Part shown: positions 66-21,803 of the stretch, piece after piece
Position numbering within the stretch: position 1 is the first letter of the stretch
Layout: the number at the start of each line of letters is the position of its first letter
From: a virus
Length of the DNA: 33,383 bases
Virus record (IMG/VR): IMGVR_UViG_3300028840_006402
Coordinates: 1-33,383 of that record
Strand: one strand, 5' to 3'
Program-made: the position numbers and the translations under genes
Notes under the pieces: generated by a model
The model's database searches: none
What the model was told of the DNA's origin: nothing
The model's input: the letters and a program-made list of their open reading frames with translations, nothing else

Positions 66-1001
66 TCAATCTCCTATTCTATTAAAAATATCTTTCATCC
101 TATGTTCCCACGTATGTTCTCTTGTTGCACGATTATAAGAATTTAATGCAATATCATATCTTTCATCTTCTCCTTTTGTTAAATAATAATCTATCTTCTC
201 TGCGAAATCGTCCATCCCATCCCAATATGCCATCTCATTATCATTGAAATAATTCTTTAATTCAGGAAGATATTCTGCGAGTAAAAATGCTTTGCACATC
301 GGCACTTCGAAATTTTTTGCCTTTATTGGTTTTAATATCCCCTGTGGAGGATTTGCGAAATGTATGTTTATTTTTGCAGAATTTATCGCATAAAGATAAT
401 CGTTAAATGAAATCCTGCCAGAATCAAACTCATTCCCAAGTGTAACGAATTTATATTTATTGCCAATTCTTTTTTTTAATTCTTCCGTCATTATTTTTCT
501 GGTTCCCACGTTTTGCCCGGTAAAAACTACATCAATTGTTTTGGGTAGATTTATCGGCATAAAATAATCGGGATTCGCTGCCCATTGAGAATATATTACA
601 TTATAAAATTTATCTTTTTTATACCATTGTAATGCAACTCCAGCCGTTGTTATTGCATAGTCAATATGAGGAAGCCAAAATCTTGTCCCCAAAGGTCTAT
701 CCCAATGATAACGCCAGTGATCGTCTGAAAACCAGCAGGCAACCTTTACTCCCCTTTTTCTTAAAATATCGAATGTTTCATACCTGATTTCTTCTTTTAG
801 AATTATTGCAAATACTGTGTCGATATTGCAATACTCCACAATTCTTAAAATATCGTCTTGCAATTTCTGATTATCAGGGCTATCAATAAAAGAATTGTAA
901 TTGTAATAAACAACCTTATGTCCAAGATTCATTATAGAATCCTTGACTTGATGTTGCTGCTCAAAGTTTGGTTTGCCGTGTGTTAAATATAATATGTTCA
1001 T
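66..1001 (-). CDS. CgeB-like GT-B glycosyltransferase
   Basis: A 311-residue protein likely to transfer a sugar from a nucleotide donor in the cytoplasm. The start, MNILYLTHGKPNFEQQHQ, is a Rossmann-type first strand of a GT-B fold. The C-terminal third has the arrangement of the CgeB / glycosyl transferase 1_2 family: a 'YLYAINSAKINIHFANPP' stretch, a 'KNFEVPMCKAFLL' segment that would hold the donor, then 'EYLPELKNYF' and a closing 'TWEHRMKDIF' helix. CgeB is known from Bacillus spore-coat glycosylation, and relatives are common in surface-polysaccharide clusters. Donor and acceptor cannot be read from sequence. There is no signal peptide or membrane segment. The ATG follows the radical SAM gene's stop by 13 bases with only a weak purine-rich site, so translation is probably coupled. 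Family call fairly sure; substrate unknown. Confidence 0.8.
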   Translation of the reverse strand: MNILYLTHGKPNFEQQHQVKDSIMNLGHKVVYYNYNSFIDSPDNQKLQDDILRIVEYCNIDTVFAIILKEEIRYETFDILRKRGVKVACWFSDDHWRYHWDRPLGTRFWLPHIDYAITTAGVALQWYKKDKFYNVIYSQWAANPDYFMPINLPKTIDVVFTGQNVGTRKIMTEELKKRIGNKYKFVTLGNEFDSGRISFNDYLYAINSAKINIHFANPPQGILKPIKAKNFEVPMCKAFLLAEYLPELKNYFNDNEMAYWDGMDDFAEKIDYYLTKGEDERYDIALNSYNRATREHTWEHRMKDIFNRIGD

Positions 1002-1014: not shown

Positions 1015-2127
1015 TTACGGAAAATTTTTGCACATCGAATCCTTTATGAAAACCTTTTCTATTATTTCGTTATATGTTCCGAACGTGCATCTTGGACACT
1101 CGTTTATGTTTATTGAATTAATCATTTTTTTATGCTTATCTGATCCCCAAAATTTTAGTATTTCTTCGTGTTTGCACATTACAAATTCCTTTTTACCTCT
1201 CATGTCAAAACATAGATGACAGTTACCGTCTGCACCAAATGTAGCAAGCAAAGGTGTTGCTCTGCATTTACTGAAATTAAGTTTCCTTTTGAAATTTTTC
1301 CCGAATTTATGCCTTATTCCGAATACCTTGAAATTTCCATCTTCAAGTTCCATCGCTTTTGAAATTTGTTCATCAAATAAAGATATGTGTTTAGTAAAAT
1401 CCAATGTTTCACATTTATTGTTTGATTCTATATTATCTACACATGCAGGTCGAAGATGAAAATGCTGACATCCAATTTCTTTGGCAAGTTTAACAGCATC
1501 GTATATTTCGGAAACATTCTCCGGGAACAGCAGATATTTAAAGGCAATATCACACATCCTGCCTTTTAACTTGCTATTTATTTTACACATATTTTCTATG
1601 TTTTTTATAACTTTGCCGAAAATATCTTTATTTTTTATACCCTTTATTTTAATAAATGTATCGCCATTGCTTGCGTCAACGGATATTCCGCACCATCGAG
1701 AGCAATGTAATATTGCATCTATCTGTTTTTCTGTTATTACAGAGCCGTTTGTTATTACTCCTGATTCTATTGAATGATAATTTAAATCCCAGATAAATGT
1801 TGCAAGATGTGGATTTAATGTTGGTTCGCCGCCACCCGAAACGCATGTTGATTTTACACCAAAATCCGAATATATGCACACAAGGTTATTTAATTGTTTT
1901 TCAGATAAAGTGTGTTCCTCTTCCGATCTATATTTTTGTGCATTGCAATGCGGGCAATTAAAATTGCATTTGTTTGTAGGGTCTGTATCTACTGTAACGG
2001 GCGGAAGAATTTTACCCTTTGCAAGCGCTTCCAACTGTTCCCTCCAAACAAGCACCTTCATTGAATTAAAAGGATTTAACTGATCAGACCATTCGGTAAA
2101 TTCAGTATGATTTTTTTTTGCTGACAC
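1015..2127 (-). CDS. Radical SAM protein with SPASM-like C-terminus
   Basis: A 370-residue radical SAM enzyme. The CxxxCxxC motif that binds the 4Fe-4S cluster and S-adenosylmethionine is C54-C58-C61 (CNFNCPHC), followed by the SAM-contacting 'GGGEPT' at 98-103. The C-terminal part holds C288, C303, C306, C318, C344 and C347, spaced like a SPASM or twitch domain that carries auxiliary iron-sulfur clusters. Family members act on peptides, sugars or alcohols, and those in polysaccharide clusters often modify sugars. No nearby small peptide gene suggests a RiPP substrate, so a glycan-related substrate is the better guess (inference). The start is a GTG overlapping the upstream methyltransferase stop (TAGTG), which indicates translational coupling. 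The next ATG (codon 23) has no ribosome-binding site. Confidence 0.88.
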   Translation of the reverse strand: MSAKKNHTEFTEWSDQLNPFNSMKVLVWREQLEALAKGKILPPVTVDTDPTNKCNFNCPHCNAQKYRSEEEHTLSEKQLNNLVCIYSDFGVKSTCVSGGGEPTLNPHLATFIWDLNYHSIESGVITNGSVITEKQIDAILHCSRWCGISVDASNGDTFIKIKGIKNKDIFGKVIKNIENMCKINSKLKGRMCDIAFKYLLFPENVSEIYDAVKLAKEIGCQHFHLRPACVDNIESNNKCETLDFTKHISLFDEQISKAMELEDGNFKVFGIRHKFGKNFKRKLNFSKCRATPLLATFGADGNCHLCFDMRGKKEFVMCKHEEILKFWGSDKHKKMINSININECPRCTFGTYNEIIEKVFIKDSMCKNFP

Positions 2128-2963
2128 TATATTTCCATCTCTTTCAAGTCTCCGATAGTTTTTAAAATGATTGGTTTGCCCTTAATTGCAACGAAAATCT
2201 CTTTTATCCCGATTGCTTTGCGTTCAAAACTAATGTTAAACCCAATTCTGTTCAATAATTTATAGATTGAAGGTTTGTCTAACAAAAAACTTTCTTCGTT
2301 CCCAATCGATCCTCTGTTATTTAGTTCACCATGAGTTCTACCATCTTTTGTTACTTTGCTTTCTCCAGTTCTTTCTTTAAAATAAAACCCGGAATATTTT
2401 TCACCTTTATGTTGTACCTCTATATTTTTGGACGGATCGTGGTTATAATTTGTATGAATAAGCATTAGCTTTTTACACATTTTTGACAATCCTTCCATCC
2501 AATCAATTTGTTCGGGGAAACTCAAGTGGTAAAGTATCCCGGCATTTATAATCACATCAAATTCTCCATATTTTTCTAAAGTGCAATTTCTTACATCATC
2601 ACAATGAATATGCAAATTGTTTAAATTAAGAACTTTTTTCACAAATCTCTGCTTTTCACAATGTTCTTCTCTACCTTCAACGGATACAACTTCAGCCCCA
2701 TGCAATGCAGGTTCAATAGAATGTAATCCTTCTAATGAACCTAAATCGAGAACCCTTAACTTGTCGAACGGCTTGTTTGTTATGTCCTGCATTGCCTGCA
2801 TAAATATTCTTAAATGCACACCGTTACTACCTGCCCCGTTTTTACTGTTCAGGTAATCTAAACTTACATTATGTCTCGTGTATATTCCGTCACCCAGATA
2901 TGTATTTGCAGATTGCCATATACCTAAACTTTTCATCTCTTTTATTACTTGTTCTTTATCCAT
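2127..2963 (-). CDS. Class I SAM-dependent methyltransferase (paralog 1)
   Basis: A 278-residue methyltransferase with a Rossmann fold. Motif I is 'VLDLGSLEG' at 71-79, the acidic residue for SAM ribose is E96 in 'VVSVEGRE', motif III is 'CDDVRN' near 121-126, and 'DVIINAGILYHL' follows at 136-147. The N-terminal 'YLGDGIYTRH' resembles the extension seen in CmoB-like and sugar-cluster methyltransferases. It shares the motif I and 'AGxLYHL' signatures with the next two genes, so the three form a tandem paralog set. The acceptor is unknown; O- or N-methylation of a glycan made by the surrounding transferases is likely (inference). The start ATG has an AGGAGAA site 6 bases upstream. The gene overlaps the radical SAM start by one base. 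Confidence 0.85.
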   Translation of the reverse strand: MDKEQVIKEMKSLGIWQSANTYLGDGIYTRHNVSLDYLNSKNGAGSNGVHLRIFMQAMQDITNKPFDKLRVLDLGSLEGLHSIEPALHGAEVVSVEGREEHCEKQRFVKKVLNLNNLHIHCDDVRNCTLEKYGEFDVIINAGILYHLSFPEQIDWMEGLSKMCKKLMLIHTNYNHDPSKNIEVQHKGEKYSGFYFKERTGESKVTKDGRTHGELNNRGSIGNEESFLLDKPSIYKLLNRIGFNISFERKAIGIKEIFVAIKGKPIILKTIGDLKEMEI

Positions 2964-2977: not shown

Positions 2978-3661
2978 TCATTTTATTGCGATAAAAGTTT
3001 CCCTCTGAATACCAGTTGGTGCTTCAGGGAACATCAATTTATATACCGAACCAAATCCTACGGCAGATAACATTTTTGCTAATTCTTTTTCTTTGAACCA
3101 AAAACTTTCGTCATTACTAATTGCAGAAGTTAATCTTTTTTCAATCTGAGTTGGGGACAGTCCCTTTATTGGCTCATCGTAAATCATTCCACTATAATTA
3201 ATGCCCTTATAATTAAATGTAGCTGGGAGCATATCTTTATATTTGGATGGCAAAACATCACAGCAATTCGTGTCTATTATTAATAGTCTATTGCAACATT
3301 TATATACTTCTTCCAACAAGTTACATATAGAATTAAAGTCAAGGTGATATAATATGCCCGGCAATAAAATAACATCAAAATGTCCGTATTTGTCAATATT
3401 AAAATTTTTCACATCATCATGGTAGAATATTAAATTGTCGGATTTGTTACACATTGCCTTTTCAATATTTATTTTCCTCCCCTCTATCCCAACAACAATG
3501 GCTCCAAGTAACGCAAGTTGATATGAATAAAATCCTTCAAAACATCCAAGATCTGCAATCCTCAATTTCTTGATTGATATGCCAACAATGTCTCGTATTA
3601 TTTGTATAAAAATATTTAACAATTCATTTTTTCTTATTTTTCTTATTTCCATCCTGTTCAT
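2978..3661 (-). CDS. Class I SAM-dependent methyltransferase (paralog 2, short)
   Basis: A 227-residue methyltransferase. Motif I is 'IADLGCFEG' at 35-43, E60 in 'VVGIEGRK' is the predicted SAM-ribose ligand, 'HDDVKN' lies at 81-86 and 'LPGILYHLDF' at 100-109. Compared with the neighbours it lacks roughly 30 N-terminal residues, including the 'LxDGxxT'-like stretch, so it is either trimmed or needs a partner. The ATG overlaps the upstream TGA (ATGA), typical of translational coupling, with only a weak GGCGGC-like site. An ATG three codons later is also possible. Substrate unknown; probably the same glycan system as its paralogs. Confidence 0.82.
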   Translation of the reverse strand: MNRMEIRKIRKNELLNIFIQIIRDIVGISIKKLRIADLGCFEGFYSYQLALLGAIVVGIEGRKINIEKAMCNKSDNLIFYHDDVKNFNIDKYGHFDVILLPGILYHLDFNSICNLLEEVYKCCNRLLIIDTNCCDVLPSKYKDMLPATFNYKGINYSGMIYDEPIKGLSPTQIEKRLTSAISNDESFWFKEKELAKMLSAVGFGSVYKLMFPEAPTGIQRETFIAIK

Positions 3662-4419
3662 TTAATTGCCGCCAATGTCAATCGTGGATCTTTTTTTAAC
3701 TTAGGGGGATGCTTAATTTCCAAAATTGTTTTAAACCCAAACTCTATTAGCATGTCATAAACACTCTTTTCGTTAAAAAGCACTGAATTATGATCTAACC
3801 CCATCCAACATTCTTTATTTTTTATAGGCAAAGCTTCTTCCTTCCACTTATCCTCCCTTATCCTTGTTCCATAATATTTATTATTTTTGTATTCTATCTG
3901 GTAATCATTCTTGTCAGTTGTAGTAGTTGATAAATAAAGAAACTTAGAACAAGCATTTGACGCTTCTTCCAAGATTCTTACCCCATAGTCTAAATCCAAA
4001 TGATATAATAACCCTGCAACCAAAACTACATCAAATTTTTCATGTTTTATTTCTGGTGGCAATCCTTGTCTCAAATCATATTGGATAAATTTAAGATTAT
4101 CCATAACAAGCAGATTCCTTAACTTGTTTGCCTTTATAATATTCTTATTGTTGGCGTCAACCCCTACTGCATATTCGGCTCCGTTCTGAATTAAAGCGAA
4201 AGAGTAATACCCCGTAAGACACCCCAGATCTATTACCCTAAGACCTTTCAATGAATTGTTAAACATTGACATCGTAACCTGAACCACCTGCTCAACCTTT
4301 GTATAAGACCCATTCTCTTTTAACCAACTACCATCTTCTAACATTATGTTTTGTCCAACCCAGTCCCCATATTTCTCGTAAACGAGAGACATTTCACATC
4401 GTATCTTGTCGGGATTCAT
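3658..4419 (-). CDS. Class I SAM-dependent methyltransferase (paralog 3)
   Basis: About 253 residues. Motif I 'VIDLGCLTG' is followed by 'AVGVDANNKN' with the SAM-binding aspartate, then 'YDLRQG' and 'DVVLVAGLLYHLDLD'. The N-terminal 'DWVGQNIMLEDGSW' resembles the N-terminus of paralog 1. It is the most diverged of the three, having 'TG' where the others have 'EG' in motif I. The reading frame also allows an ATG at 4425, but AAAAGG directly abuts that codon, whereas the ATG at 4419 has a normal 6-base spacing, so I prefer 4419. It overlaps the sulfotransferase-like gene by about 26 bases. Methylation of a sugar or aglycone is inferred from context only. Confidence 0.84.
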   Translation of the reverse strand: MNPDKIRCEMSLVYEKYGDWVGQNIMLEDGSWLKENGSYTKVEQVVQVTMSMFNNSLKGLRVIDLGCLTGYYSFALIQNGAEYAVGVDANNKNIIKANKLRNLLVMDNLKFIQYDLRQGLPPEIKHEKFDVVLVAGLLYHLDLDYGVRILEEASNACSKFLYLSTTTTDKNDYQIEYKNNKYYGTRIREDKWKEEALPIKNKECWMGLDHNSVLFNEKSVYDMLIEFGFKTILEIKHPPKLKKDPRLTLAAIK

Positions 4420-5011
4420 TTTCATCCTTTTTCTTTTCGTTATTTATATTTTCAATATTAGTAGTTATTCTCTTTATGTCAAATATCGTTTTAAATCCTT
4501 TTTCAAAAATATTTTTTTCTAAGTTTGGGAAAGGTTTTATTAGACAATTAAAAAGATATTCACTATTTTTAACAAAACTTGGGAAATTAATTGCAACAAC
4601 AGGTATGCTCCTGTGTTCCTTTAAATAGTCAGCTATTTGATAATATCGTTGCATAGTTACCATAAGCTGACGATCAGGGTCTCCCTTTGTTTCTATGTCT
4701 AATCCGCCCCTCCAGTAACCTTCATCCCATCTTTTTATCCTGCTTTTTGCAACTTCTTCAAAATCTCTACGAAGCCATATGTAATAATCAATATCCCATT
4801 GATCCAACCATTTAATGTCTTTTGCTGTATGCTCATGATCTTTGATTATATATGCATTCAAGTTTCCTTCGAGAAAAAAAGACCTGAATAATTCCTCGTT
4901 TTTGTAAGAATTTTTCCCGTAACCCGTCTCTAATCCTAAATATGACAACAAACACATCAATATTGTCGAACCTGTTCTTCCTGTCCCACCAACTATTATC
5001 TTATGTTTCAT
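4394..5011 (-). CDS. Sulfotransferase-like P-loop protein
   Basis: A 205-residue protein that begins 'KIIVGGTGRTGSTILMCLL'. The glycine-rich GRTGST loop at 11-16 right after the first beta strand matches the 5'-phosphosulfate-binding loop of PAPS-dependent sulfotransferases; a kinase P-loop would need GKS/T. A later 'DYYIWLRRDFEEVAKSRI' segment resembles the 3'-phosphate-binding strand and helix (R...xxxxxSR) of that family. The protein is shorter than the usual 250-300 residues, and the tail is polar and Lys/Asn rich. If active it would sulfate a sugar or protein hydroxyl. The ATG has a good AAGGTGAT site and overlaps the preceding GT2 gene by 11 bases. Moderate confidence; it could be another P-loop transferase. 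Confidence 0.6.
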   Translation of the reverse strand: MKHKIIVGGTGRTGSTILMCLLSYLGLETGYGKNSYKNEELFRSFFLEGNLNAYIIKDHEHTAKDIKWLDQWDIDYYIWLRRDFEEVAKSRIKRWDEGYWRGGLDIETKGDPDRQLMVTMQRYYQIADYLKEHRSIPVVAINFPSFVKNSEYLFNCLIKPFPNLEKNIFEKGFKTIFDIKRITTNIENINNEKKKDENESRQDTM

Positions 5012-5696
5012 AAATCACCTTATGTCCTGTTAAATGAAATTTTCTATCTGGGTACATATCCCTTATCATTTTTTTTATTTCTTTAGTGCATATATCATAA
5101 TTAGTAGCCGAAACCCCATTTTCGTTGTGATACAATAATCCCCCCACAACATCGACTTTTGAAAAATTAGTAATTTTAGACATTCTCAGCCAGTATTCCC
5201 AATCTTGGGCAACTACAAAACTTTCATTATAAATACCTATATCTTTCCCCAACTTTTTTCTATATATTACAAATTGCCCAATATAATTATGTCCCTCTAA
5301 TTTTTCTTTTGAATACTCATCTACATGCACCGTATGCATACCATTTCTGGTGTAATCAAAATTAGAATAAACTACTCCTATATCGGGATTACAATCAAGA
5401 AACTCAACCATTTTATTGGCACTTTCAGGATACCAGTAATCATCCTGACCTATCCAAGAAATATATTCACCTCTGGATAAAGAAATGCCTTTGTTGAGCG
5501 CAGTTGCATGACCAACATTTTTAGACAATTCTATATATTCTATAGGTAAATCACAAATTAGCGAATACTCATCCTCTGGCGAAGCATCGTTTACTACAAT
5601 AGTTTCGGAATTGTTAGCTGACAAACATGATTCAACAGCCTTTCTCAATTTGCCATGACTATTGTATGCCGGTATTATAAAACTAATTTTTTTCAA
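5001..5696 (-). CDS. GT2 family glycosyltransferase
   Basis: A 231-residue single-domain GT-A glycosyltransferase. It opens with 'KISFIIPAYNSHGKLRKAV', then 'ETIVVNDASPEDE' (nucleotide-binding aspartate), 'NVGHATALNKGISLSRGEYI' and the metal-binding DxD-type 'GQDD' at 83-86. 'VVAQDWEYWLR' is the usual acceptor-side acidic motif. It probably adds one sugar to a growing glycan on the cytoplasmic side; no membrane helix is present. The start is TTG at 5696, overlapping the preceding TGA (TTGA) and preceded by AAAGGAAA at normal spacing, so the rare start codon is well supported. Confidence 0.88.
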   Translation of the reverse strand: MKKISFIIPAYNSHGKLRKAVESCLSANNSETIVVNDASPEDEYSLICDLPIEYIELSKNVGHATALNKGISLSRGEYISWIGQDDYWYPESANKMVEFLDCNPDIGVVYSNFDYTRNGMHTVHVDEYSKEKLEGHNYIGQFVIYRKKLGKDIGIYNESFVVAQDWEYWLRMSKITNFSKVDVVGGLLYHNENGVSATNYDICTKEIKKMIRDMYPDRKFHLTGHKVIYET

Positions 5697-6439
5697 ATTG
5701 TTTCCTTTCTTAAATTAGAAGGGTTAAACTCTATGCCTGCATAATTGCAATACATCTTATATCTTGCAAGCATCATAAAATATTTTCGTTTACTAAGCAA
5801 ACCATCATATTTCTTGCTATGTCTCCACTTATATAATATTTGGGGGATATTGCTAATTTTACATTTGGTCATAAACCTAAAAAATAAATCGTAGTCCTGA
5901 CATCTTTCAAATATCTCATCATACATACCCGCTTCTTTTAACAACGATGTCCTGAACATTATAGAACCATGACAGAATTTATTTCTATTAAAAAAATCTT
6001 TTCGGATATCTATATCTTTAGTTGGCGATTTCACATCCATTTTAAATTTACCGTTTTCATTTATTATCCTATACCATGTCCCAATTAAACCAAAGCCATC
6101 GTTATCTTCTAAAAAATCAATTTGCCTTACAAATCTATCGGGTAGAGAAATATCGTCTGCATCCTGTCTGGCTATATATTTAATGTTGGGATTATCGTTC
6201 AAAACCTGTCTTATCAAAAAATTCAAAGATTTAGGAAGTCCATAATTCCCTTCCCTTGTAAATATTTTTATTTTTTCGTTACTTCTATATTCGTTGCAAA
6301 CTTCATAACTATTATCCGTAGCACCATCAATTAAAATGTAAAATAAATAATTATCGTAAATTTGGTTTAATATGGATTGTATGGCATCGTTGACATATTC
6401 ACCTGCATTATATACCGACATTATTACAGCAAGATTCAT
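5693..6439 (-). CDS. GT2 family glycosyltransferase
   Basis: A 248-residue GT-A glycosyltransferase: 'MNLAVIMSVYNAGEYVNDAI', 'ILIDGATDNSYEV', 'GNYGLPKSLNFLI', and the divalent-cation motif in 'RQDADDISLPDRF' at 91-103, followed by 'FERCQDYDLFFRF' with the acidic pair expected near the catalytic base. This is the textbook layout of GT2 enzymes of polysaccharide and LPS outer-core clusters. Donor and acceptor are unknown. The ATG overlaps the stop of the giant fusion gene (ATGA) and has an AAGGAA site. The gene shares the marked AT-richness of the fusion gene. Confidence 0.9.
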   Translation of the reverse strand: MNLAVIMSVYNAGEYVNDAIQSILNQIYDNYLFYILIDGATDNSYEVCNEYRSNEKIKIFTREGNYGLPKSLNFLIRQVLNDNPNIKYIARQDADDISLPDRFVRQIDFLEDNDGFGLIGTWYRIINENGKFKMDVKSPTKDIDIRKDFFNRNKFCHGSIMFRTSLLKEAGMYDEIFERCQDYDLFFRFMTKCKISNIPQILYKWRHSKKYDGLLSKRKYFMMLARYKMYCNYAGIEFNPSNLRKETI

Positions 6440-9400
6440 TTTTTATTCCTTACAAACAAATTGGGATGCGAGTCTTTAAAATATTTGCGAATTTTGTCGT
6501 CATGCCCTTTAGTATATATAATATTATATTCATCTTTAAATTCATAATCGTTATTTTTAGCAAGTTCGTTATATATTTTTGATCCCGGCAACCCGATATA
6601 TACATTCCTTGATACCTGCCCCTTGGGGATATATTTATCTATAAAATTTTCGGTTTCAATACGATCTTGCTCTGTTTCATACGGAGTACCGAAAAGAAAA
6701 GAGGCATGCATGTTCATACCTATTCCCTTGCAATATTTTGCAATCTTTATGTTATCCTCCATTTTAAATCCCGGTTTTAATAAAGGCAATAACCTTTCAG
6801 AACCAGTTTCAAACCCAATAAACAAACCTTTGCATCCAGCCCCTTGCATTTTATCAAGCAATTCAGGTGATAGATCTCTTACAGATGTTTCGCAATACCA
6901 ATCTATGTCAATATTATTTTGCTTCAAAAGATTACAAAAATTATAAATTCTTTCATTATTGAAACAAAAATTATTTTCCCTGAAGTAAATAGAACCAACA
7001 CCTTTTTCTGCTTTTAAATATTCTATGTCTTTAATTATTCTTTCGGCACTTTGAAATCTATACTTATTGCCAGATATAGGACCAGAAGAACAAAAAGAAC
7101 AATTATATGGACAACCACGAGAAGTATTCATGTTGAAAAAAGGCAATTTGGATTTGACATGCGACTTATATTTTCTGTCACCAATCAAGTCATATGCAGG
7201 CATTGGCAATCCATCTAGTTCTTTTATATATTTTGTCTTTATAACATGATCTTTTATTTTACCACTTATAAGATCTAAAATAACATTTTCAGCTTCACCT
7301 ATAATAATATGATCTATTTCATCTGGATAATCTTCGGTTACAGACCAATGCGGACCACCAGATATTATTTTCACATTATGTTTTTGGCTTTTTAGTTTGC
7401 GAACCTGATTCATAACATCTTTAATGCATATTGTGCAGGCATATATACCTACTATGTCAATATCATTACTTTCTAAATATTCAGAATCATAACTATCGGC
7501 AGGACCATAGTAGGGGTCTTTAAAAAAAATATTATGCCCCTCTTCCCTTAAAATAGAAGCTATGTACCCTAAGCCGATAGGAAATAATTTTTCCGATATA
7601 CTAAAATAAATATCGTTTTGAATTGGTGCAGATGCAGTAGTTAATAAAATATTCTTGCAATTTTTCTTTGAATATTTTTTGATAATTTTTTCCCCTATCA
7701 TTTTTCTAGTGCCATCTAATTCAGTAGAATACGTCATGGATTTTTGGGAAATATTTACATCTACCACGATCTTGTCAATAAAATTCCACGCATCAACTCC
7801 ATATTCGTCTAAAACTCTAAAATTCATTTCCATGTCACCCAGACATGGCAATGTGTCATCAAAATACCCGATGTCGTCAAAAATTTCTTTCCTAAACATT
7901 CTATTACAAGTAGTCCAATTCCTACCTGTTTCCAAAGGCGATTCCCCTCTTTTTACCATATTGGCAAGAGTATAATTCTCCTCTGGTATTATGTCGCCAC
8001 ATCTATAATTAAAATTTCTATTGGCTTTCCCATATACAGCCTTTATACCATTATTTGTAAATCCAGAAATTAAAAGTTCTAATGCATTTGGTCTAAAAAG
8101 ATCATCATCATCTAATTCTGTTACAAAATCTCCAGTTGCCAATTTTAATCCTGTATTTAAGGAAGCAAAAAGACCTAAATTATTGGAATGCCTAACGTAA
8201 ATATAATTTTCAAGTTCAGAATCTTTTATTATATTGCGGACATCATCGCCTCCATCATTTACAACAATAACCTCATAGTTTTCATATGTTTGTTTCTTTA
8301 TTGATTCCAATGCACTTAATAATGGCTTCTCCCTATTGTACGTTGGGACTATAATAGATATTTTTTGCAAAGACGGCACAACTGTTTTGAAAACTCTTAA
8401 AACATCCTTAGATGTTATTGACTTTACACATATATCATTGCCACGTGGGCATTTGAGCTTTCTATTCATAGGACGATCTATAGACCAAATTCTACAGCCT
8501 AGACAATTTAAATTTTCATTGCGAATTGCTTTTAATCTTTCTGGATATAGCAAAACAAGTTCCGGGGGAACGCTACCTAGTATTACAGCACCCGGTTTAT
8601 AATATGCATTGGCAATATGCATTGGGGCACTGTCTATGCCGAAAAAACCAGAACAATTCTTTATAATTCCTGCCGATTCCTCCCATGATAAACCACAGTA
8701 ACTATCAGCTATGTCTTGGGTCAAATTCCTACTCTTACCAATTTCTATAATTCTATACCCCATTTTCTTTATTTCCAACAAAGATTCTTTAGCAACATCT
8801 ATTGGCATATTTCTTCCATCCCAAGGATTGGGACCCAAATGTACAACTATATATTTAAAATTAAAATATTTTTCTACCCATTCTGCTATTTTGTCGGTAA
8901 GAAAAAATTCTGGTCTTTTGTCTTTTAAATGTATTCCTGATTGTGCCATGTAAGAATCTACAATATGACCAATTGATTCCGATTTATGATACATGCATTC
9001 GTATGTCATGTCTAAGTCTATAACGCAATCGTATTTACTCTCATTTATTTTACTAGAAGTCCCTAAAATATTATCTATCTTTGGGTTATTAACTAATAAT
9101 CCAGGAGCGTTTGTCACAATAGTTATTTCTGCGTAAACATTTTCTCTCTTTATCTGTTTTATCAATGGAGTTATTAAAAATACATCGCCAGAAGAAGATG
9201 TTCTTTTTATTAAATATGATTTTTTAAAACTTTTATTTTTTATATAATTAGAGAATTTATCTACCAATATCTTTTCATTTTTTAAATTATATCCCCTTAC
9301 ATCCTCCCTAACGAGCCGGGAAGTTGGACACGATTTGTCATGTATCATATTAAAAGGAGTATGCTTTATCTTAAACCCTCGCATCCTTGCACATAAACAC

Positions 9401-10260
9401 AAATCGGAATCCTCTGCATACGCAAATTCTAATTCAGGAGAAAATAAACCAAATTCTTCGGCATATTCTTTTTCTATTGCAAGACAACTGCCCTCAATGT
9501 AATCATAATTATCGGAATCAACACTATACCCCTTGCCATTATCTAAAAGACGACATTTAGTTGGTCCGCAAATTTTAACATCATGATCGGAAAACCCGGA
9601 TAATATTTTATCCAACCAGTAATCAGACACCGTAATGTCATTATTTAACATAAGAAAATAACGACCATTGGCTTTTTTAAATGCATATTTTTGCCCGCCG
9701 ATAAATCCAATGTTTTTCTTGTGCTTTATTATTATTGTTTTTATGTCGTTCTCTTCCTTAAAAGATTGAATATATTCGTATGTATCATCTTGGCTATTAT
9801 TATCAGTTAATATTAATTCATACCTTATATCGCCTTTAGAGTTTAAAATACTATTCAAACACTTTTTCGTTTGATCAATCCTATTGCAACACAATATTGA
9901 TATGGAAAATATAATATCTCTTTCGTCTATCTTGGATATTTTCTGATATTCATCCTGCTCATCTAAATCACCAACATTATCTTGCAATATTTCAATTTCA
10001 TCTGAAGATATCGGTGTGTCATCGTAATGCATATTTATTATTTCAGGTCTTTCAATATTCGCAATTTTCGAAACCCCAAACTGATCCAATGCAAATGATG
10101 GAACGTCTTTTTCTTCAACACGTTCCCAGCCTTGAGTCAAAAGTGCTTTTACCGAAGCCCGTTTTTTTACAATACAATACCCTTCAAAACATTTAATTAC
10201 TCCCTCATAATGAGTAGTGGTTGTATTCCTAAAATAACCTTTTTTATTCATCCAGTACAT
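6436..10260 (-). CDS. Giant fusion: GT2 - GT9 - GT2 - B12-binding radical SAM
   Basis: A 1274-residue multidomain enzyme. (i) Residues 18-64 form a short module with 'VIKCFEGYCIVKK', resembling part of the protein at 26369-26815. (ii) 116-315 is a GT2 domain ('SISILCCNRIDQTKKCL', NND at 206-208, AEDSDL at 282-287). (iii) 348-625 is a GT9 domain like ADP-heptose transferases, with 'VVHLGPNPW' and the signature 'FGIDSAPMHIANA' at 540-552, then four cysteines (586, 589, 604, 611). (iv) 633-855 is a second GT2 with DDDD at 717-720. (v) 868-1000 is a cobalamin-binding-type domain ('FPIGLGYIASILREEGH', 'ISGGPHW', 'GEAE'). (vi) 1040-1240 is a radical SAM domain with 'SRGCPYNCSFC' (C1050, C1054, C1057) and 'FIGFETGSE'. 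The ATG at 10260 has AGGAGA at 6-base spacing; the GTG at 10266 is too close to it. Very AT-rich. No stop or frameshift breaks the domains, so the fusion looks real. Substrates unknown. Confidence 0.92.
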   Translation of the reverse strand: MYWMNKKGYFRNTTTTHYEGVIKCFEGYCIVKKRASVKALLTQGWERVEEKDVPSFALDQFGVSKIANIERPEIINMHYDDTPISSDEIEILQDNVGDLDEQDEYQKISKIDERDIIFSISILCCNRIDQTKKCLNSILNSKGDIRYELILTDNNSQDDTYEYIQSFKEENDIKTIIIKHKKNIGFIGGQKYAFKKANGRYFLMLNNDITVSDYWLDKILSGFSDHDVKICGPTKCRLLDNGKGYSVDSDNYDYIEGSCLAIEKEYAEEFGLFSPELEFAYAEDSDLCLCARMRGFKIKHTPFNMIHDKSCPTSRLVREDVRGYNLKNEKILVDKFSNYIKNKSFKKSYLIKRTSSSGDVFLITPLIKQIKRENVYAEITIVTNAPGLLVNNPKIDNILGTSSKINESKYDCVIDLDMTYECMYHKSESIGHIVDSYMAQSGIHLKDKRPEFFLTDKIAEWVEKYFNFKYIVVHLGPNPWDGRNMPIDVAKESLLEIKKMGYRIIEIGKSRNLTQDIADSYCGLSWEESAGIIKNCSGFFGIDSAPMHIANAYYKPGAVILGSVPPELVLLYPERLKAIRNENLNCLGCRIWSIDRPMNRKLKCPRGNDICVKSITSKDVLRVFKTVVPSLQKISIIVPTYNREKPLLSALESIKKQTYENYEVIVVNDGGDDVRNIIKDSELENYIYVRHSNNLGLFASLNTGLKLATGDFVTELDDDDLFRPNALELLISGFTNNGIKAVYGKANRNFNYRCGDIIPEENYTLANMVKRGESPLETGRNWTTCNRMFRKEIFDDIGYFDDTLPCLGDMEMNFRVLDEYGVDAWNFIDKIVVDVNISQKSMTYSTELDGTRKMIGEKIIKKYSKKNCKNILLTTASAPIQNDIYFSISEKLFPIGLGYIASILREEGHNIFFKDPYYGPADSYDSEYLESNDIDIVGIYACTICIKDVMNQVRKLKSQKHNVKIISGGPHWSVTEDYPDEIDHIIIGEAENVILDLISGKIKDHVIKTKYIKELDGLPMPAYDLIGDRKYKSHVKSKLPFFNMNTSRGCPYNCSFCSSGPISGNKYRFQSAERIIKDIEYLKAEKGVGSIYFRENNFCFNNERIYNFCNLLKQNNIDIDWYCETSVRDLSPELLDKMQGAGCKGLFIGFETGSERLLPLLKPGFKMEDNIKIAKYCKGIGMNMHASFLFGTPYETEQDRIETENFIDKYIPKGQVSRNVYIGLPGSKIYNELAKNNDYEFKDEYNIIYTKGHDDKIRKYFKDSHPNLFVRNKK

Positions 10261-10970
10261 TTCCACTCTCCTATATAATATTTCCCTTTTTTATACCCGT
10301 TCATTGCAACCCGTATTGCCCTTACCCTCAAATCAGAACTCCCCCTGAATCTTTCTATTATTTTATTCTTTAATTCGTTTGGTCTTGCATGATGTTTAAA
10401 ACATTTCAATGGTCTGCTCCAGTATTGTGTTTTCAAGCTGACTCTCGCCCAGTCAATATCGTCACATCCCCATTTCACCCCGGTTTCTGGTTCGTAACAC
10501 CTGAACCCACCAAACTCTTTCACAACAGGGTGACGGGCAAATATAACCCTGTACGCCCTGTGATGACAATGGTCTATTGTTATCTTCTCGTTTTCCCCAA
10601 CTGTCATGCTGTCCATTTTAGGCATCTTCTCAAACTCTTTTAACACGTCTTCATCCCATCCCGGCAACGCTTCAATGTTCCCGTCTGCCTTCACAAATAT
10701 ATCTTCAGGATTAGAATCCGGCATCTCTTTTAACCAGAAAATATTTCTTGCTGTAGCAGGCGATAAATGTTCGCTTGATACTTTAAATTCGTGTATCATA
10801 CCTTTTTCTTTTAATGCAGAAAGTTTAACTTCCATGTCAGGATCAGGGCTATGGTTGTCTACATAAAACACCTGAACATTATCCGGGTTCTTTGCGTTTT
10901 GCTTCCAACTAACAGCACATTGTTCCCATACATCAGGTCTGTTCCATTCAACAATAAATATTTTAAACAT
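10248..10970 (-). CDS. GT-A fold (GT2-like) glycosyltransferase
   Basis: A 240-residue protein with a GT-A core: 'MFKIFIVEWNRPDVWEQC', 'VFYVDNHSPDPDMEVK' for nucleotide binding, 'SPATARNIFW', the metal site region 'IFVKADGNIEALPGW' (DxN in place of DxD, 94-98) and 'VKWGCDDIDWARVS' at 165-178. The C-terminal half has several His residues ('IDHCHHRAY', 'KCFKHHARP') that could help bind metal. It starts with an ATG preceded by GGAGAATAAA and follows the giant tail gene after 10 bases, so it is the first gene of the glycan island. Its base composition is like the tail genes and unlike the AT-rich fusion gene downstream. It could act on the tail protein or a host glycan. Confidence 0.78.
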   Translation of the reverse strand: MFKIFIVEWNRPDVWEQCAVSWKQNAKNPDNVQVFYVDNHSPDPDMEVKLSALKEKGMIHEFKVSSEHLSPATARNIFWLKEMPDSNPEDIFVKADGNIEALPGWDEDVLKEFEKMPKMDSMTVGENEKITIDHCHHRAYRVIFARHPVVKEFGGFRCYEPETGVKWGCDDIDWARVSLKTQYWSRPLKCFKHHARPNELKNKIIERFRGSSDLRVRAIRVAMNGYKKGKYYIGEWKCTG

Positions 10971-10980: not shown

Positions 10981-13900
10981 TTATCCCTTCGCTAAATTTT
11001 TTGTAAGCCTGTATAAATCATTTAGATCATCAAAAGATATGTTCTTTGACATATAATTCACAAGAAATGTCGCACCTGCCAACCCAGAAAAATGATCTGT
11101 AACTTTTACAGTGTCCAATAATTTCAAAGAAGGCAAATATGCAGAATTTATTTCCATCTCTGCCTGCACAGTATTGTATCTTCTTATAATATTATTGGCG
11201 ATTGTAGTTGCCACATCATCTTCCTGAATATAAGGGTTTTCTATCTTTACTGTCTTGCCATAAGTCAGTGTGCCGGAAGTTGCACTTGCCTGAACAAAAT
11301 CTTCTCCCGTAACCACCGCTTCTTTCACAAGCCGATCCCTTCTCTGCCCTGTATACTTTACCGTTACTGCATTATCATTCTCCGTCAATGTGACTCCGGT
11401 AGTTGCAGAATGTGATGTTATATTACCCCATGTTTTAAAATAAATGTCCCCCTGATTGTTAGTATATACAACTCCATCACAAGCCTGTGCAAGTTTGAAA
11501 AGAACATCCCCGATGGATTGCTCTTGGATTGTAACATTGGAAAAATATTGTTCGTAATCCTCTAAAAATATATCTTCACCCGGTATATTTGCTTCAGTAA
11601 ACAACAGATCATGCATTATGTCCTTCACTCTCCATTGCCCCTGATAAATCTTGGGATCTGGAGTATTGTCTACCGGCATCCCCAACTTTGTGTCGATTGC
11701 TTCTCTTAATAAACTCCTGCAATAAATCTGAGCAGTTTCATCATTTGATATTTCTACCCTGTCAATATAATAGCGTCCGCTTAAATAATACTCACTCCTA
11801 CTACTAAGCTGAAATCCAGTAAATATTCTTATTTCATCACTCAAATAATTCCTGTTATAAAATATTGAACTGGTATCAAGTTCAGAAAAATACCTATCTT
11901 CATTGTTTACAATTAAAGTAACATCTCCGGCTACTATATTGCCAAGATCGTCTGGCTTAACAGGAACTTCAGAATTTAAATCGCTAATAGATGTTATGTA
12001 ATCTGTAATATTGATCTTCTCGTCTTCCCTTGCACCCGAAGCCGGAACTAATTGCACTCTGTATATTGGAGTGGAATTTGTCGAGTTCTGAGCGGTCATA
12101 AAAGCTGTCGATGGAACCTGACCGGGATCTGTATATTCGACAGTAAAATTGTTTACTATAGGGCTTCTGCCTGTAGCATGTGTGTTGGCTAAAATTATTG
12201 CCCATCTTACGCTATAAAAATAATCAGTAGTTGTTCCCGGCATCGCAACATATGTTTCAGGCATCGTTTGAGTTCCGGCAGATGAAGTTGACCAAACAGA
12301 ATGCCAAACGGGTTTTTTCTCTCCTGGCCCACCTCTTGGAGGTATCCTGCCTTCACCAGAATACAGCATGTTGTAACTGTCAATCGCCTTAAATAAATGT
12401 GGAGCCTGAATGTTATTCTCGTCCCATTCCCCGGAAGAACCAACATCTATTTGATAATCCCCAGCATTTAATTTGTTAAAATCTTCTGTGTATAACTGAC
12501 ATTCTGCACAATCAGTTGTCTTATTTGTCATATTAAGAGCATATCCCAGATAGCCACCTTCAATTACCGTTGCTCCTCCACGAAGATATAAAGTATTGCC
12601 CTTCCCTGAATTGTCTGTTATTAAATTTCCTGCACCCTCAAAATTGCTGGCAAAATCCCAGAAACCTAAACTTTGGTGCATGTCGGCCATTGCCCCATCA
12701 TCCGATAAGTCGAACTTATACCAGGGTGGCATAGGAAAGCTTGCATCCCCATTATTTATGAATTGCCTGTATGTAGGAACCATACCGCCAACTTCTCCCT
12801 GAGGATTGATGAAAAGGATATCTAATCCAATATCGCAATGCCCTATATAACCCACTGTATATCCAGCTTTTTTGTTTTGATCCTGCAATGCTAAATTATA
12901 ACCGTTCCCTAACATTGGTGGCATTGATAGGCTTGGGTCTAAAATTTTAGGACCTTCGCTACTTACGGATGTATACCCTTTCTTCCAGATAACATCCGGC
13001 AGACCATAACCCTGACCATCCTGATTGCTCGTATTATAAGTAAAACTAAACATATGATTTATGTCAACAGATGGAAGATGCACGGACATATAGCCAGAGG
13101 GGTATGTTGATGTATCGAGATAATCTCTAACCAAATCCCTCCATTGCTGTGACGATTTGAGATGTCCCTGAGCAAGCATTACTCCATGATATGAAGCACC
13201 GGGGAATTGTTGAACATTTGAAAATCCCCACGGTCCAATAGGATTTAATAGATCGCAATCATAAGTATCATCTCCGTTGTCTGTTACGTTTACAATTCTA
13301 TTTAATTGAACCTGAGCTCCACTCATGTATTCTGTTGCACCTACGGCAGGTCTACCCCAGAATAAAATATCCTGACCGCTACCTTCATAATCAGTAACTC
13401 CGTCAACCCAAGAATATTGCCTTGTCAAAGTTACAGATGTATCCCCTTCTACAACTCCGTTTGTCATCATCCATGGACTTCTCGCAAAATAATCGGCACC
13501 ACCCCAACCATTTTCAAAACCGTTGCCCCCACCAATTCTCGGCATCATGGAGACCCGGTAACATTCAAGTTGATCCCCTGTAAATTGAGCAACAATATAA
13601 TTCCAGTGATCATGCATCAGAAAATGTCCAAAACCCATATTCATACTTTGCTCAGGTGTAGGCTCTGCCGTATACCATTGACCATCGACATAAGCATGTG
13701 CCTGCACCATATTTTCATGCGTTACTTCAACCCAGAAATTACCCATATCAAATAATACGGCACCATCAACGGGAGGGTATCCCAGACTTGACATTGGATA
13801 AACAAGTAATGAAACATGGAATCTTTTATATGGATTGCTGAAACTAGATTCCTGAACAGCACTGCCTATTGTCCTTTTAGTACCATCGTCCCCTGTATAA

Positions 13901-16050
13901 TGAATCATACTCTTAGGAAGCCACATATTCAAATCTGGATAATAACAACCATTACTATCAAATGTCGATCCGGGTTCGATAAACGGATTCCCGTCAAACT
14001 TGGTGAAAGTAGTAAAATTAGTGCTTTGAGCAAATCCTATTTTCGCATATTCTCCCGTGCTTTCACCAACATATGCCATATAAACCGCATTGCCACGATA
14101 TTTTACCGACGGTTGTTTTACAGCAAGGGAATCCCATGCCCCTGCCGCACCAACATCAAGGACAATTCTTCTGTCTGCCCTTGTTCTCCATTTCACCCAA
14201 TTGCTTGTATCCTGATTATCATCTATCGTATACGCCCCACCGATTTTTGTAACTCTGTAAGAATTGTTTGCAACCCTTGCCATCTTATCAGCATCATAAT
14301 CATATGCATAAGTGGACGCACTATCTTCCCCATATCCAACATATTGCAAGCATATGTCATTCCCGCTTACGCCCGATACAGTGCATACTTCGTAATGATC
14401 CTGATCAAAAATTATTGCAAGATCATTGTCAATAAACTTAGTGCCGTCTGATACTGTTATTGAAACAGAAGATTGCCCCTGACTTGAAACCGAAGAAGAA
14501 ATACTAACCCTCGGTCGCTCCCTTGCAGTATAATACATAGCCATGACACCCGGAGCAGACCTCTCATCCCCCTGAATTATTGCAGGATCGGACACTATTT
14601 CATCCCATACAGCAGGCATGAAAGGTCTAACATTATCTATATAAAGAGTATCGGTTCCGCTTGGTGTACTGTCAGGTTGCACGTCAAATATTACCGACCT
14701 AATATATTTTCGACCCGCAAAAGAACTAAAATCAAAAGATGTGCTTCCTGTCGCCGCACCTCGTAAAACATTCTCAAAAGTATGAGTAGTAGATGTTCCA
14801 TCTGCGGCAAGCAATTTTACAGTTATATCGCCCTGAGTATTTGTCCCGCTTCCCTTATAGTTAAATTGAAAATAATTATAATTACTACCGTTAGTATCAT
14901 CGGAAGTTACTTCGAAATTCATAGGTACTGGCATTAACCCCCATAATTCCCCTGCATCAGTATACTCGCATTTCAAGCACGTTACGCCTGTCATTGCAGT
15001 TGTAGTATCAAGGGAAATAGTCAGATCTGAATCTTCGGAATCCCATACCATGTGCAATTCATCGCTATCTGCATACCCGTTGAATGTTTCAGTTTCGTTC
15101 CCATGCCTTATAATCGGATTTAATTTTTTCGGATTTTGGTTCCCTAAAAATTGACTCCAATTATAATAATCCTGTTCCTCTTTTGATAAAGCAAGACCTA
15201 TTTGAGAACTATACTTTTCCCTGTTTCCGGAAAAGAACAATCCGGGCTTATTCCATTCTTCCTTTTCATCCTTTTCGTATGTGTCAACGCCGTCTAATAT
15301 TCTTCCGCTCTCAATACCATCGCCTGCCCAATCCCAGGGATATTCCGTCTGCAATCCAAATAAAGGATTATCAGTATCCCTTGTCCATTTCGTATTTGTA
15401 TTGATAACATAAAGTTTATCATCCCTGCTTACTGGTAACGCAAGTTTTTCTATGTATATTCTTGTATATTCATCACTTAAAGTATTATTAACTCCTTCAA
15501 GGGATCTGCCCTCTGTGCAGTCATTGGAATTTAATATTTTATATATCATTACCTGATTATCTTTACTTTTAGAATGTATGGCAACATAATCACCCTGAAC
15601 AATATTAGTGTTTTTTACAACATCAACATATCTGAGAGTTGAGACAAGTAATCCATCAGACATATTATAACTATTATCAACAGTTTCAGTTAAATTTAAA
15701 GATTGGTCGTGGACTATGTTGTCAATCAACCCAACTTCCTGATGGTTGGAATCTTCTATAAGAACATAATCCCCATCGGCAAATCCATTTGTATAGGTAA
15801 CAGATATTCCACTATCAGTGTCAGCAACCAGATCCCCGCATGGAGCCTCTATTGCCGCAGGGTCAACCGTTCCGCTCGTTACGGTGGAACCGGGAGCATA
15901 CAAAAGACCTAGTCTTTTATGCTTCCACCTATCCCCGCTTATCTCTACCTGTCCTGCATAAATATCCCCGTCTGGACCAATATCTATATTTTCAACATGA
16001 ATTTCATCCCCAAGCCAATCTTGCAGGGTATTATATGTAAGTGTTGTCAT
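10981..16050 (-). CDS. Giant tail protein: sugar-binding/propeller-like modules plus hub-like C-terminus
   Basis: A 1689-residue structural protein that follows the distal tail gene, the usual place for a tail hub or receptor-binding protein. Four segments look like blades of a GH43/GH32-type beta-propeller: about 266-298 ('KPGLFFSGN...IGLALS'), 480-512 ('VSDPAIIQ...MAMYYTA'), 631-692 ('GAWD...QPSVKYRGNAVYMAY...NPFIEPG') and 1202-1232 ('GEWD...APHLFK...YNMLYSG'). Between the first two, 330-475 resembles a jelly-roll carbohydrate-binding module ending 'DTLYIDNVRPF'. Residues 1128-1170 have a LamG-like start ('GFWDF...DNSGKGN'). The last 350 residues, with 'GRYYIDRVEISND' and 'VKVTDHFSGLAGATFLV', resemble baseplate or hub domains. 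No catalytic acids can be assigned, so binding without cleavage is possible. The Shine-Dalgarno is weak. Likely the host-recognition protein (inference). Confidence 0.72.
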   Translation of the reverse strand: MTTLTYNTLQDWLGDEIHVENIDIGPDGDIYAGQVEISGDRWKHKRLGLLYAPGSTVTSGTVDPAAIEAPCGDLVADTDSGISVTYTNGFADGDYVLIEDSNHQEVGLIDNIVHDQSLNLTETVDNSYNMSDGLLVSTLRYVDVVKNTNIVQGDYVAIHSKSKDNQVMIYKILNSNDCTEGRSLEGVNNTLSDEYTRIYIEKLALPVSRDDKLYVINTNTKWTRDTDNPLFGLQTEYPWDWAGDGIESGRILDGVDTYEKDEKEEWNKPGLFFSGNREKYSSQIGLALSKEEQDYYNWSQFLGNQNPKKLNPIIRHGNETETFNGYADSDELHMVWDSEDSDLTISLDTTTAMTGVTCLKCEYTDAGELWGLMPVPMNFEVTSDDTNGSNYNYFQFNYKGSGTNTQGDITVKLLAADGTSTTHTFENVLRGAATGSTSFDFSSFAGRKYIRSVIFDVQPDSTPSGTDTLYIDNVRPFMPAVWDEIVSDPAIIQGDERSAPGVMAMYYTARERPRVSISSSVSSQGQSSVSITVSDGTKFIDNDLAIIFDQDHYEVCTVSGVSGNDICLQYVGYGEDSASTYAYDYDADKMARVANNSYRVTKIGGAYTIDDNQDTSNWVKWRTRADRRIVLDVGAAGAWDSLAVKQPSVKYRGNAVYMAYVGESTGEYAKIGFAQSTNFTTFTKFDGNPFIEPGSTFDSNGCYYPDLNMWLPKSMIHYTGDDGTKRTIGSAVQESSFSNPYKRFHVSLLVYPMSSLGYPPVDGAVLFDMGNFWVEVTHENMVQAHAYVDGQWYTAEPTPEQSMNMGFGHFLMHDHWNYIVAQFTGDQLECYRVSMMPRIGGGNGFENGWGGADYFARSPWMMTNGVVEGDTSVTLTRQYSWVDGVTDYEGSGQDILFWGRPAVGATEYMSGAQVQLNRIVNVTDNGDDTYDCDLLNPIGPWGFSNVQQFPGASYHGVMLAQGHLKSSQQWRDLVRDYLDTSTYPSGYMSVHLPSVDINHMFSFTYNTSNQDGQGYGLPDVIWKKGYTSVSSEGPKILDPSLSMPPMLGNGYNLALQDQNKKAGYTVGYIGHCDIGLDILFINPQGEVGGMVPTYRQFINNGDASFPMPPWYKFDLSDDGAMADMHQSLGFWDFASNFEGAGNLITDNSGKGNTLYLRGGATVIEGGYLGYALNMTNKTTDCAECQLYTEDFNKLNAGDYQIDVGSSGEWDENNIQAPHLFKAIDSYNMLYSGEGRIPPRGGPGEKKPVWHSVWSTSSAGTQTMPETYVAMPGTTTDYFYSVRWAIILANTHATGRSPIVNNFTVEYTDPGQVPSTAFMTAQNSTNSTPIYRVQLVPASGAREDEKINITDYITSISDLNSEVPVKPDDLGNIVAGDVTLIVNNEDRYFSELDTSSIFYNRNYLSDEIRIFTGFQLSSRSEYYLSGRYYIDRVEISNDETAQIYCRSLLREAIDTKLGMPVDNTPDPKIYQGQWRVKDIMHDLLFTEANIPGEDIFLEDYEQYFSNVTIQEQSIGDVLFKLAQACDGVVYTNNQGDIYFKTWGNITSHSATTGVTLTENDNAVTVKYTGQRRDRLVKEAVVTGEDFVQASATSGTLTYGKTVKIENPYIQEDDVATTIANNIIRRYNTVQAEMEINSAYLPSLKLLDTVKVTDHFSGLAGATFLVNYMSKNISFDDLNDLYRLTKNLAKG

Positions 16051-20019: not shown

Positions 20020-20373
20020 CTACACCTTCTCCGCATATCCCCTTGATTGTAATTTGTTCATCGCCCTATCCAATGCTTCGTAATCTGCTTTCGTTTGAGG
20101 TTTTTTCAATACTACCCCCTTCTTTTCTCCTTTTGGGTCTTTTATCTTTTCGATCATCTTCTGATTTATCCTTGAATTATTGTAAACAAAGTTTCTAACT
20201 TGATCTCCTGTATGTTCCCACAAAAGCTCTCGATAAGTCCATCCGGTCTCCGTAATAATCCCAGCAATCATTTCTCCTATGGTTTCAATTTTGATGCCAT
20301 CTGACTCAGCTTTGACTGTTTTAGAATTGATCTTATCGAAGAGAATTCGAAAAAATCGAACATCACATCGCAT
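20020..20373 (-). CDS. Tail assembly chaperone, frameshift extension (T-like)
   Basis: This frame lies at -1 relative to the gene upstream and overlaps it by 97 bases. An ATG opens it at 20373 but has no evident Shine-Dalgarno; it is better explained as an extension reached by ribosomal slippage at 20349-20355. Slippage there gives a product of about 230 residues: 121 from the upstream frame and 109 from this one. The extension has a 'TIGEMIAGIITETGWTYRELL' helix and a basic tail ('KIKDPKGEKKGVVLKK'), as in lambda gpGT-like proteins that link the major tail protein with the tape measure during tail assembly. Absent from the mature virion in known systems. Confidence 0.72.
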   Translation of the reverse strand: MRCDVRFFRILFDKINSKTVKAESDGIKIETIGEMIAGIITETGWTYRELLWEHTGDQVRNFVYNNSRINQKMIEKIKDPKGEKKGVVLKKPQTKADYEALDRAMNKLQSRGYAEKV

Positions 20374-20711
20374 GACAGGCTTAACCCAAACTTTTCATTT
20401 TTTATCTGTTCTACACTAAAGCCTGTGTAGCAAGCCATCATTTCAAATAACTTGTCATGCCTTTCAGTATCGGTATCTTTCCTTAGCCTTTCAATAACAT
20501 AGCCAACGCTAAGCTCAGGATCACCTTCCTCTCTATACGCTTCTTTAAGTTCTTCCATCAGCATGTTGATTTTTAATTCATCCCCATAAAATATAGGCTT
20601 TAGCTTGATCTTCTCTCCGTTCGCATCTGTAATAACATCCTGATCCCCAAGAATCTCCTTGAATTCTGCAATTGCAACTTTTGCATCGTTTAGATTTTTA
20701 ATCTCGTTCAT
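20277..20711 (-). CDS. Tail assembly chaperone (G-like)
   Basis: A 144-residue soluble, acidic and helical protein ('NEIKNLNDAKVAIAEFKEIL', 'INMLMEELKEAYREEG') directly downstream of the major tail protein. Size, position and the overlapping -1 frame identify it as the lambda gpG-type chaperone that is thought to coat the tape measure and recruit tail tube subunits. The core 'RLRKDTDTERHDKLFEMMACYTGFS' is the kind of helical segment seen in such chaperones, but the family is too variable to confirm by sequence. It starts at an ATG after AAGGATATAGGGAAC, with further purine-rich sites upstream. It is transcribed through or after the terminator-like hairpin behind the major tail gene. Confidence 0.75.
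   Translation of the reverse strand: MNEIKNLNDAKVAIAEFKEILGDQDVITDANGEKIKLKPIFYGDELKINMLMEELKEAYREEGDPELSVGYVIERLRKDTDTERHDKLFEMMACYTGFSVEQIKNEKFGLSLSCDVMFDFFEFSSIRSILKQSKLSQMASKLKP
20349..20355 (-). other. Candidate -1 programmed ribosomal frameshift site (T TTT TTC)
   Basis: In the frame of the upstream chaperone the minus strand reads GAT TTT TTC, so the heptamer T TTT TTC has the canonical X XXY YYZ phase. Both tRNA-Phe anticodons can re-pair after a one-base slip. The downstream frame is the -1 frame, and the site lies inside the 97-base overlap. The position between major tail protein and tape measure is where lambda-like phages use such shifts. I found no strong stimulatory hairpin by eye. 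Confidence 0.72.
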
Positions 20712-20750
20712 GTTCCCTATATCCTTTTCTCCTTGTTTGTTGTTAAATTA

Positions 20751-20779
20751 TAAAAACAAGGGCGGGACATGCCCGCCCC
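20751..20779 (-). terminator. Rho-independent terminator after the major tail protein
   Basis: On the minus strand, 8 bases past the major tail protein stop, GGGCGGG and CCCGCCC form a perfect 7-bp GC stem with a 5-base loop, followed by TTGTTTTTAT. It should end or reduce transcription before the chaperone genes, keeping major tail protein in excess over chaperones and tape measure. The downstream genes lack a convincing promoter of their own, so it is probably leaky or antiterminated. Confidence 0.78.
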
Positions 20780-20786
20780 GTTAAAT

Positions 20787-21371: not shown

Positions 21372-21389
21372 TTAATATCACCCCCTATT

Positions 21390-21800: not shown

Positions 21801-21803
21801 ATT

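Follow-up and report, generated by a model that had tools for sequence, protein, structure and literature searches.

Phage glycosyltransferases (GTs) decorate virions, host surfaces and DNA, and radical SAM enzymes form a class that is usually oxygen-sensitive. Sugar-acting members of the latter class include AprD4, the 1,2-diol dehydratase of apramycin synthesis, which deoxygenates one sugar within a pseudodisaccharide, and GenK and GenD1, both of class B, which methylate sugar carbons of pseudodisaccharide-type compounds (PMC5461906). The protein O-heptosyltransferase TibC carries an iron finger formed by Cys-339, Cys-342, Cys-358 and Cys-370 (PMC4358343). A Brachyspira plasmid bears neighboring but separate radical SAM and GT genes (PMC4267127), and PMC9723712 reports 15 radical SAM enzymes for one huge virus. 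Mycobacteriophages are known to have virion glycans, as far as PMC12619734 cites Freeman 2023 to that effect. Here we describe a phage gene whose product joins three predicted GT modules and a B12-binding/radical SAM module (B12rSAM) in one chain, and compare it with relatives from phages and bacteria.

The fused gene and its modules

The window, meaning the whole stretch of DNA analyzed, is a virus record of 33,383 bases. Its minus strand contains the following fused open reading frame (ORF), with the modules given in their order from the N terminus:

6436-10266, minus strand: fused ORF, 1274 aa from the ATG at 10260, 1276 aa from the GTG at 10266
10078-10242, minus strand: N-terminal domain, residues 7-61, paralogue of the protein encoded at 26369-26815
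9226-9915, minus strand: GT2 module (GT2a), residues 116-345, by Pfam and model; NND at 9637-9645
8386-9225, minus strand: GT9 module, residues 346-625, by Pfam (21.1 bits) and Foldseek; DSAPMHIA at 8611-8634
7651-8364, minus strand: GT2 module (GT2b), residues 633-870, by Pfam and phmmer; DDDD at 8101-8112
7270-7590, minus strand: B12-binding-type domain, residues 891-997, by Pfam (43.4 bits) and fold
6634-7125, minus strand: radical SAM core, residues 1046-1209, by Pfam and fold (AprD4, E 1e-21); CxxxCxxC at 7090-7113

The first-pass annotation had read this interval as a single phage polypeptide with four catalytic modules, which frame, Pfam matches and predicted folds bear out; the N-terminal domain is a module that it did not contain. 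Every motif residue that it named is in place in the 1274-aa translation (NND 206, DSAPMHIA 543, DDDD 717 and CxxxCxxC 1050/1054/1057, counted from the ATG). The stop codon occupies 6436-6438, and the coding part from the ATG runs unbroken from 10260 to 6439 on the minus strand; the plus strand of 6436-10260 is packed with stops. The sequence is known from metagenome contigs only, which could suggest an assembly join of neighboring genes. We regard this as practically dismissed, because an independent, separately assembled twin contig of 53.7 kb (IMGVR_UViG_3300017971_000343, G001) encodes the same 1274 aa with 0 differences, and the existence of similar fusions elsewhere, in further contigs and genomes, argues against it as well. 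Two differences separate twin and window: one SNP, at window position 102, and an indel of 108 bp within the tail gene at 10981-16050. The twin has these 108 bp (36 aa) extra at window position 12321/12322, in frame and not as a tandem duplicate of the flanking sequence; the indel reflects either assembly or natural length variation of the large tail protein.

A Pfam HMM search, one of the checks proposed at the outset, placed both GT2 modules, the B12-binding domain and the radical SAM core above cut-off and the GT9 module slightly below. Glycos_transf_2 (PF00535) matched two stretches with 178 bits together, carrying the acidic metal-site motifs (NND 206 and DDDD 717), while Glyco_transf_9 (PF01075) remained under its gathering cut-off of 22.0. 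Structure models, also proposed then, recovered the predicted GT9 and B12rSAM folds from separately modeled segments. For the AlphaFold model of residues 101-640 (pLDDT 79), the top solved matches in Foldseek are GT9 enzymes, with 3tov at E 2e-13, heptosyltransferase II (1psw) at E 8e-12 and TibC among the top folds. Foldseek and alignment together give the GT9 module a GT-B heptosyltransferase fold with GD...TP and DSxxxHxA motifs. The module also displays a four-Cys finger, C-x2-C-x14-C-x6-C, at 8428-8505, and similar Cys patterns are seen in other phage GT9s. A homologous GT2a-GT9 didomain is present in the viral contig L165 (509 aligned columns, 27%).

In the B12rSAM part, PF02310 (B12-binding) exceeded its cut-off of 32.1 bits and Radical_SAM scored 76 bits against a cut-off of 30, with cluster cysteines C1050, C1054 and C1057. 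The AlphaFold model (26 sequences; pLDDT 88, pTM 0.88) has AprD4 (6fd2) as its best solved fold match, with TM 0.78-0.80, followed by TsrM, MgmA, CysS and OxsB; among solved structures, AprD4 ranks first by sequence too (E 1e-22). The AprD4 family model of NCBIfam (NF033070) gives 94.7 bits and is not reached at its cut-off of 500, and none of the curated NCBIfam radical SAM families, methylases included, is reached either (best scores 52-124 bits, cut-offs 251-775). The initial description of the enzyme as cobalamin-type therefore holds for a B12-binding-type domain, recognized by Pfam and fold; as a label for the enzyme it is read from the fold only. Because AprD4 and GenK/GenD1 provide precedents for both, the module could catalyze either deoxygenation/dehydration or C-methylation. 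Methylation, the example given earlier, stays one option, while AprD4, the nearest solved structure, deoxygenates a sugar.

Gene surroundings

The genes around the fusion that bear on its function are:

10248-10970, minus strand: upstream gene, GT-A-like by eye, without a family match
5693-6439, minus strand: GT2 gene (Pfam), overlapping the fusion by 4 nt; a partner of B12rSAM in bacteria too
5001-5696, minus strand: further GT2 gene (Pfam), with a 4-nt overlap with the gene at 5693-6439
4394-5011, minus strand: putative P-loop protein, sulfotransferase-like by eye (GGTGRTGS), without a Pfam match
3658-4425, 2978-3661 and 2127-2963, minus strand: three class I methyltransferase genes (Pfam)
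1015-2127, minus strand: second radical SAM gene (Pfam), without a B12-binding match
66-1001, minus strand: Glyco_trans_1_2 gene (Pfam), with close relatives in the bacterial giant fusion L133 and the phage L140
21804-24236, minus strand: gene for an 810-aa multi-GT2 protein, located between the genes for capsid and tail
26369-26815, minus strand: small protein that has the paralogous domain; the major capsid gene is 78 bp away
26894-27856, minus strand: major head protein (PHROG)

The fused gene shares its strand with the tail, capsid, protease and portal genes of the virion structural operon and is nearly contiguous with them. No nucleotide-sugar synthesis genes were recognized in the 53.7 kb twin, so that donor sugars would have to be host-derived. 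Just past the window end (G001 20247-22232; L005:247-2232), adjoining 66-2127, is a second Glyco_trans_1_2 and radical SAM pair, which looks like a tandem duplication within the island. The 810-aa protein lies far from the glycan island, and one part of it resembles the family of the peptide S-glycosyltransferase SunS, below the family cut-off. A 38-bp direct repeat (35/38 identical) at 24597-24634 and 25166-25203, TCATTCTTATTCTCC...TTTTTGTTAAAAT, is located where three successive small genes meet.

Fusions in other phages

The B12rSAM part has no detectable relative among 50,697 named phage records and no close one in a plasmid search, and predicted viral proteins gave only distant fold matches to it. 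With a first profile, the matches listed contained only unfused B12rSAM (26 other viral contigs and at least 80 genome loci, at most 34% identity). A fusion unique to this phage, a candidate that we considered, was overturned by a whole-genome search and a better profile. Likewise, the statement in the first-pass annotation that no such phage enzyme was described does not extend to uniqueness, since B12rSAM-GT2 fusions are encoded in five bacterial genomes and in no fewer than four further phage contigs; homologues are thus not always separate proteins, in phages or in bacteria. The virus search suggested there did retrieve B12rSAM/GT fusions, though in domain orders that differ from that of the window.

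The viral fusions came from a subfamily profile search. Two have the order B12rSAM-GT2-GT2 (L140, 945 aa; L146, 908 aa), one is GT4-GT2-GT2-B12rSAM (L144, 1224 aa) and one GT2-B12rSAM (L148, 824 aa), and genes for head, tail or terminase are present on all four contigs. The same B12rSAM clade is joined to GTs in these proteins and in the window, whereas order and partners differ. A further viral contig, L192, has an unfused B12rSAM followed directly by a GT2. A B12rSAM tree built from 39 rows splits the five fused viral sequences into as many branches, every split being required by well-supported forks, and pairs the window with a bacterial gene that is unfused (support 95/85); fusion (or fission) thus happened several times. 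The major head protein gene is immediately followed by a GT9-type gene in each of two unrelated phages (L144:5923-7407 and L140:1117-2142).

Bacterial relatives and the partner GT2

Searching whole genomes with the GT segment led to bacterial giants of up to 2769 aa, and bacterial fusions that combine B12rSAM with several GT modules measure 1302-2769 aa. The B12rSAM of five bacterial genomes (L130, L133, L134, L135 and L136) is 39-42% identical to the phage module, with E down to 2e-104. In one phylum, 11 of 395 genomes possess the subfamily, five fused and six unfused; in two other phyla, at E <= 1e-110, it is sparse, being found in 0/198 and 1/193 genomes.

The six unfused bacterial genes (L153-L158) are each followed within 64 bp by a GT2 of the 5693 type. 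By eye, their neighbors include other glycan genes and, at three of these loci, ABC exporter genes. Among 4688 ORFs from a non-random set of loci gathered via B12rSAM and GT searches, each of the 14 top matches to the phage gene at 5693-6439 is either fused to a B12rSAM from the clade of the phage module or separated from one by no more than 64 bp; numerous further GT2 genes in the set have lower ranks. Because all 14 adjoin or are fused to this clade, co-inheritance of B12rSAM and the 5693-type GT2 is well supported. The earlier proposal that sugar transfer is physically linked to a radical step is likewise supported by the single chain and reinforced by gene neighborhood.

Some of the bacterial giants, of 1875-2769 aa (L131:4376-11185, L133:3106-11412 and L137:8693-14317), contain up to six GT2 stretches, and some of these add GT4-like, methyltransferase, radical SAM or TPR parts; the giants are apparently an undescribed class of modular glycan-synthesis proteins. 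Their relatives in L134 and L135 are near flagellar hook genes, recognized by eye. A Nanoarchaeota MAG encodes a tandem double B12rSAM protein of 1186 aa (L113:3065-6622).

The N-terminal domain

Residues 7-61 are 33% identical to the protein encoded at 26369-26815 (E 3e-7 in a single comparison). The alignment score of this pair is 74, against 26.8±4.5 in 5000 shuffles (maximum 52), and the protein is the top-scoring match to these residues among all twin-genome proteins, the next scoring 48. A scan of the collection for the domain in other phages matched the twin genome only. The idea that phage GTs in general carry an N-terminal targeting domain was rejected after shuffle tests, with nothing convincing among 15 other viral GT9s, and an apparent targeting domain in L140 was discarded when its score tied with that of an unrelated ORF. 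The viral GT9 proteins L174, L176, L181 and L187 display a similar-looking N-terminal extension of ~60 residues, with no paralogue nearby.

Proposed function and alternatives

We give an even chance to the reading that the fused protein is a glycan-assembly enzyme derived from a captured bacterial cassette and most likely modifies the virion. The cassette, B12rSAM + GT2 + GT2, would have been taken from bacterial surface-polysaccharide (O-antigen-type) loci and fused repeatedly in phages. The GT2, GT9 and GT2 modules would add sugars successively, yielding a short glycan from host nucleotide sugars, and the B12rSAM module would alter one sugar of that glycan by radical chemistry, through either deoxygenation/dehydration or C-methylation. 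The separate GT2 of the next gene (5693-6439) may work together with B12rSAM, as bacterial gene order suggests. A virion protein is the likeliest acceptor, given the location of the gene within the late structural operon and an N-terminal domain copied from a protein next to the capsid gene; this domain could hold the enzyme on the 26369-26815 protein, or mimic it, during glycan building. Two points count against a virion target: the N-terminal domain was found in this phage only, and the bacterial relatives lie in loci for cell-surface glycans, which would suit a host-surface target equally. A more specific version, in which the duplicated head-associated domain docks the enzyme as a virion-tethered assembly line, the three GTs and the radical SAM module build and edit a capsid or tail glycan, and the protein is one of several independently fused, previously undescribed GT/radical-SAM megaenzymes of phages and bacteria, is advanced tentatively, as rather unlikely in its entirety.

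The main rival to a virion target is modification of the host surface, for which we see a possible if doubtful case. The enzyme would then remodel an O-antigen-like surface polysaccharide in infection, for example to block superinfection or to keep progeny off debris, and its place among late genes would reflect timing only. The closest bacterial relatives do lie in surface-glycan loci with exporter genes, and SAR11 phage glycosyltransferases have been interpreted as host-surface modifiers (PMC7029224). However, no membrane GtrA/GtrC-type gene was recognized in the island, and no integrase family was recognized among the tested twin-genome proteins, which makes lysogenic serotype conversion unlikely; host-surface modification also gives no role to an N-terminal domain copied from the protein beside the capsid gene.

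Two other readings concern the chemistry. A radical SAM part that is catalytically dead and serves as a scaffold would agree with the long terminal branch of the window (1.19) in the B12rSAM tree, but CxxxCxxC, GGPH and other invariant columns of the clade are retained and the predicted fold is confident, so that we consider it improbable. Less probable still is hypermodification of phage DNA, with a base as the substrate of radical SAM and GT reactions: virus-encoded GTs with this function are known, to the extent that PMC12619734 cites Pyle 2024 for them, but the twin genome has ordinary C5 and N4/N6 DNA methyltransferases, and the bacterial relatives are in polysaccharide loci, none in nucleotide loci.

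Under the preferred reading of a virion-modifying glycan-assembly enzyme, a radical enzyme and several GTs in one chain would imply an unusual phage-made sugar. The repeated, reordered fusions of one bacterial cassette suggest a rule, namely that this B12rSAM subfamily accompanies its partner GT2, and from this rule a function can be predicted for many genes that lack annotation, both in phages and in bacterial surface-glycan loci. With its N-terminal domain, the protein also offers a directly testable hint of how a phage may direct a modifying enzyme to its own particle.

Comparison with known systems

Phage and bacterial glycan-synthesis enzymes are known, and the fused GT/B12rSAM form is so far undescribed in the open-licence literature, where no paper on it was found; description elsewhere is possible. 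The phage GT9 module resembles TibC in its GT9 fold and has a similar four-Cys finger, a candidate iron finger, after the DSxPxHIA motif, whereas the last two Cys are spaced differently and no TibC-type beta-barrel directly precedes the module. With the sugar-acting AprD4, the phage B12rSAM module shares the overall fold; AprD4 has a C-x3-C-x3-C motif and P-Y (CPYPCRFYCPY), while the phage module has C-x3-C-x2-C (CPYNCSFCSS).

The O-antigen-type bacterial cassette B12rSAM > GT2 > GT2 of L153-L158 has the same adjacent partners, but as separate genes, and its third, GT2b-like gene is recognized in only part of the six loci. The bacterial fusions of L130, L133, L134, L135 and L136 combine the same B12rSAM subfamily and GT2 types in a single chain, without a recognized GT9 and without the phage N-terminal domain. 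Their module order, B12rSAM-GT2(5693 type)-GT2b-..., is permuted relative to that of the phage, and the 5693-type GT2, which is inside the chain in the bacterial fusions, is a separate overlapping gene in the phage.
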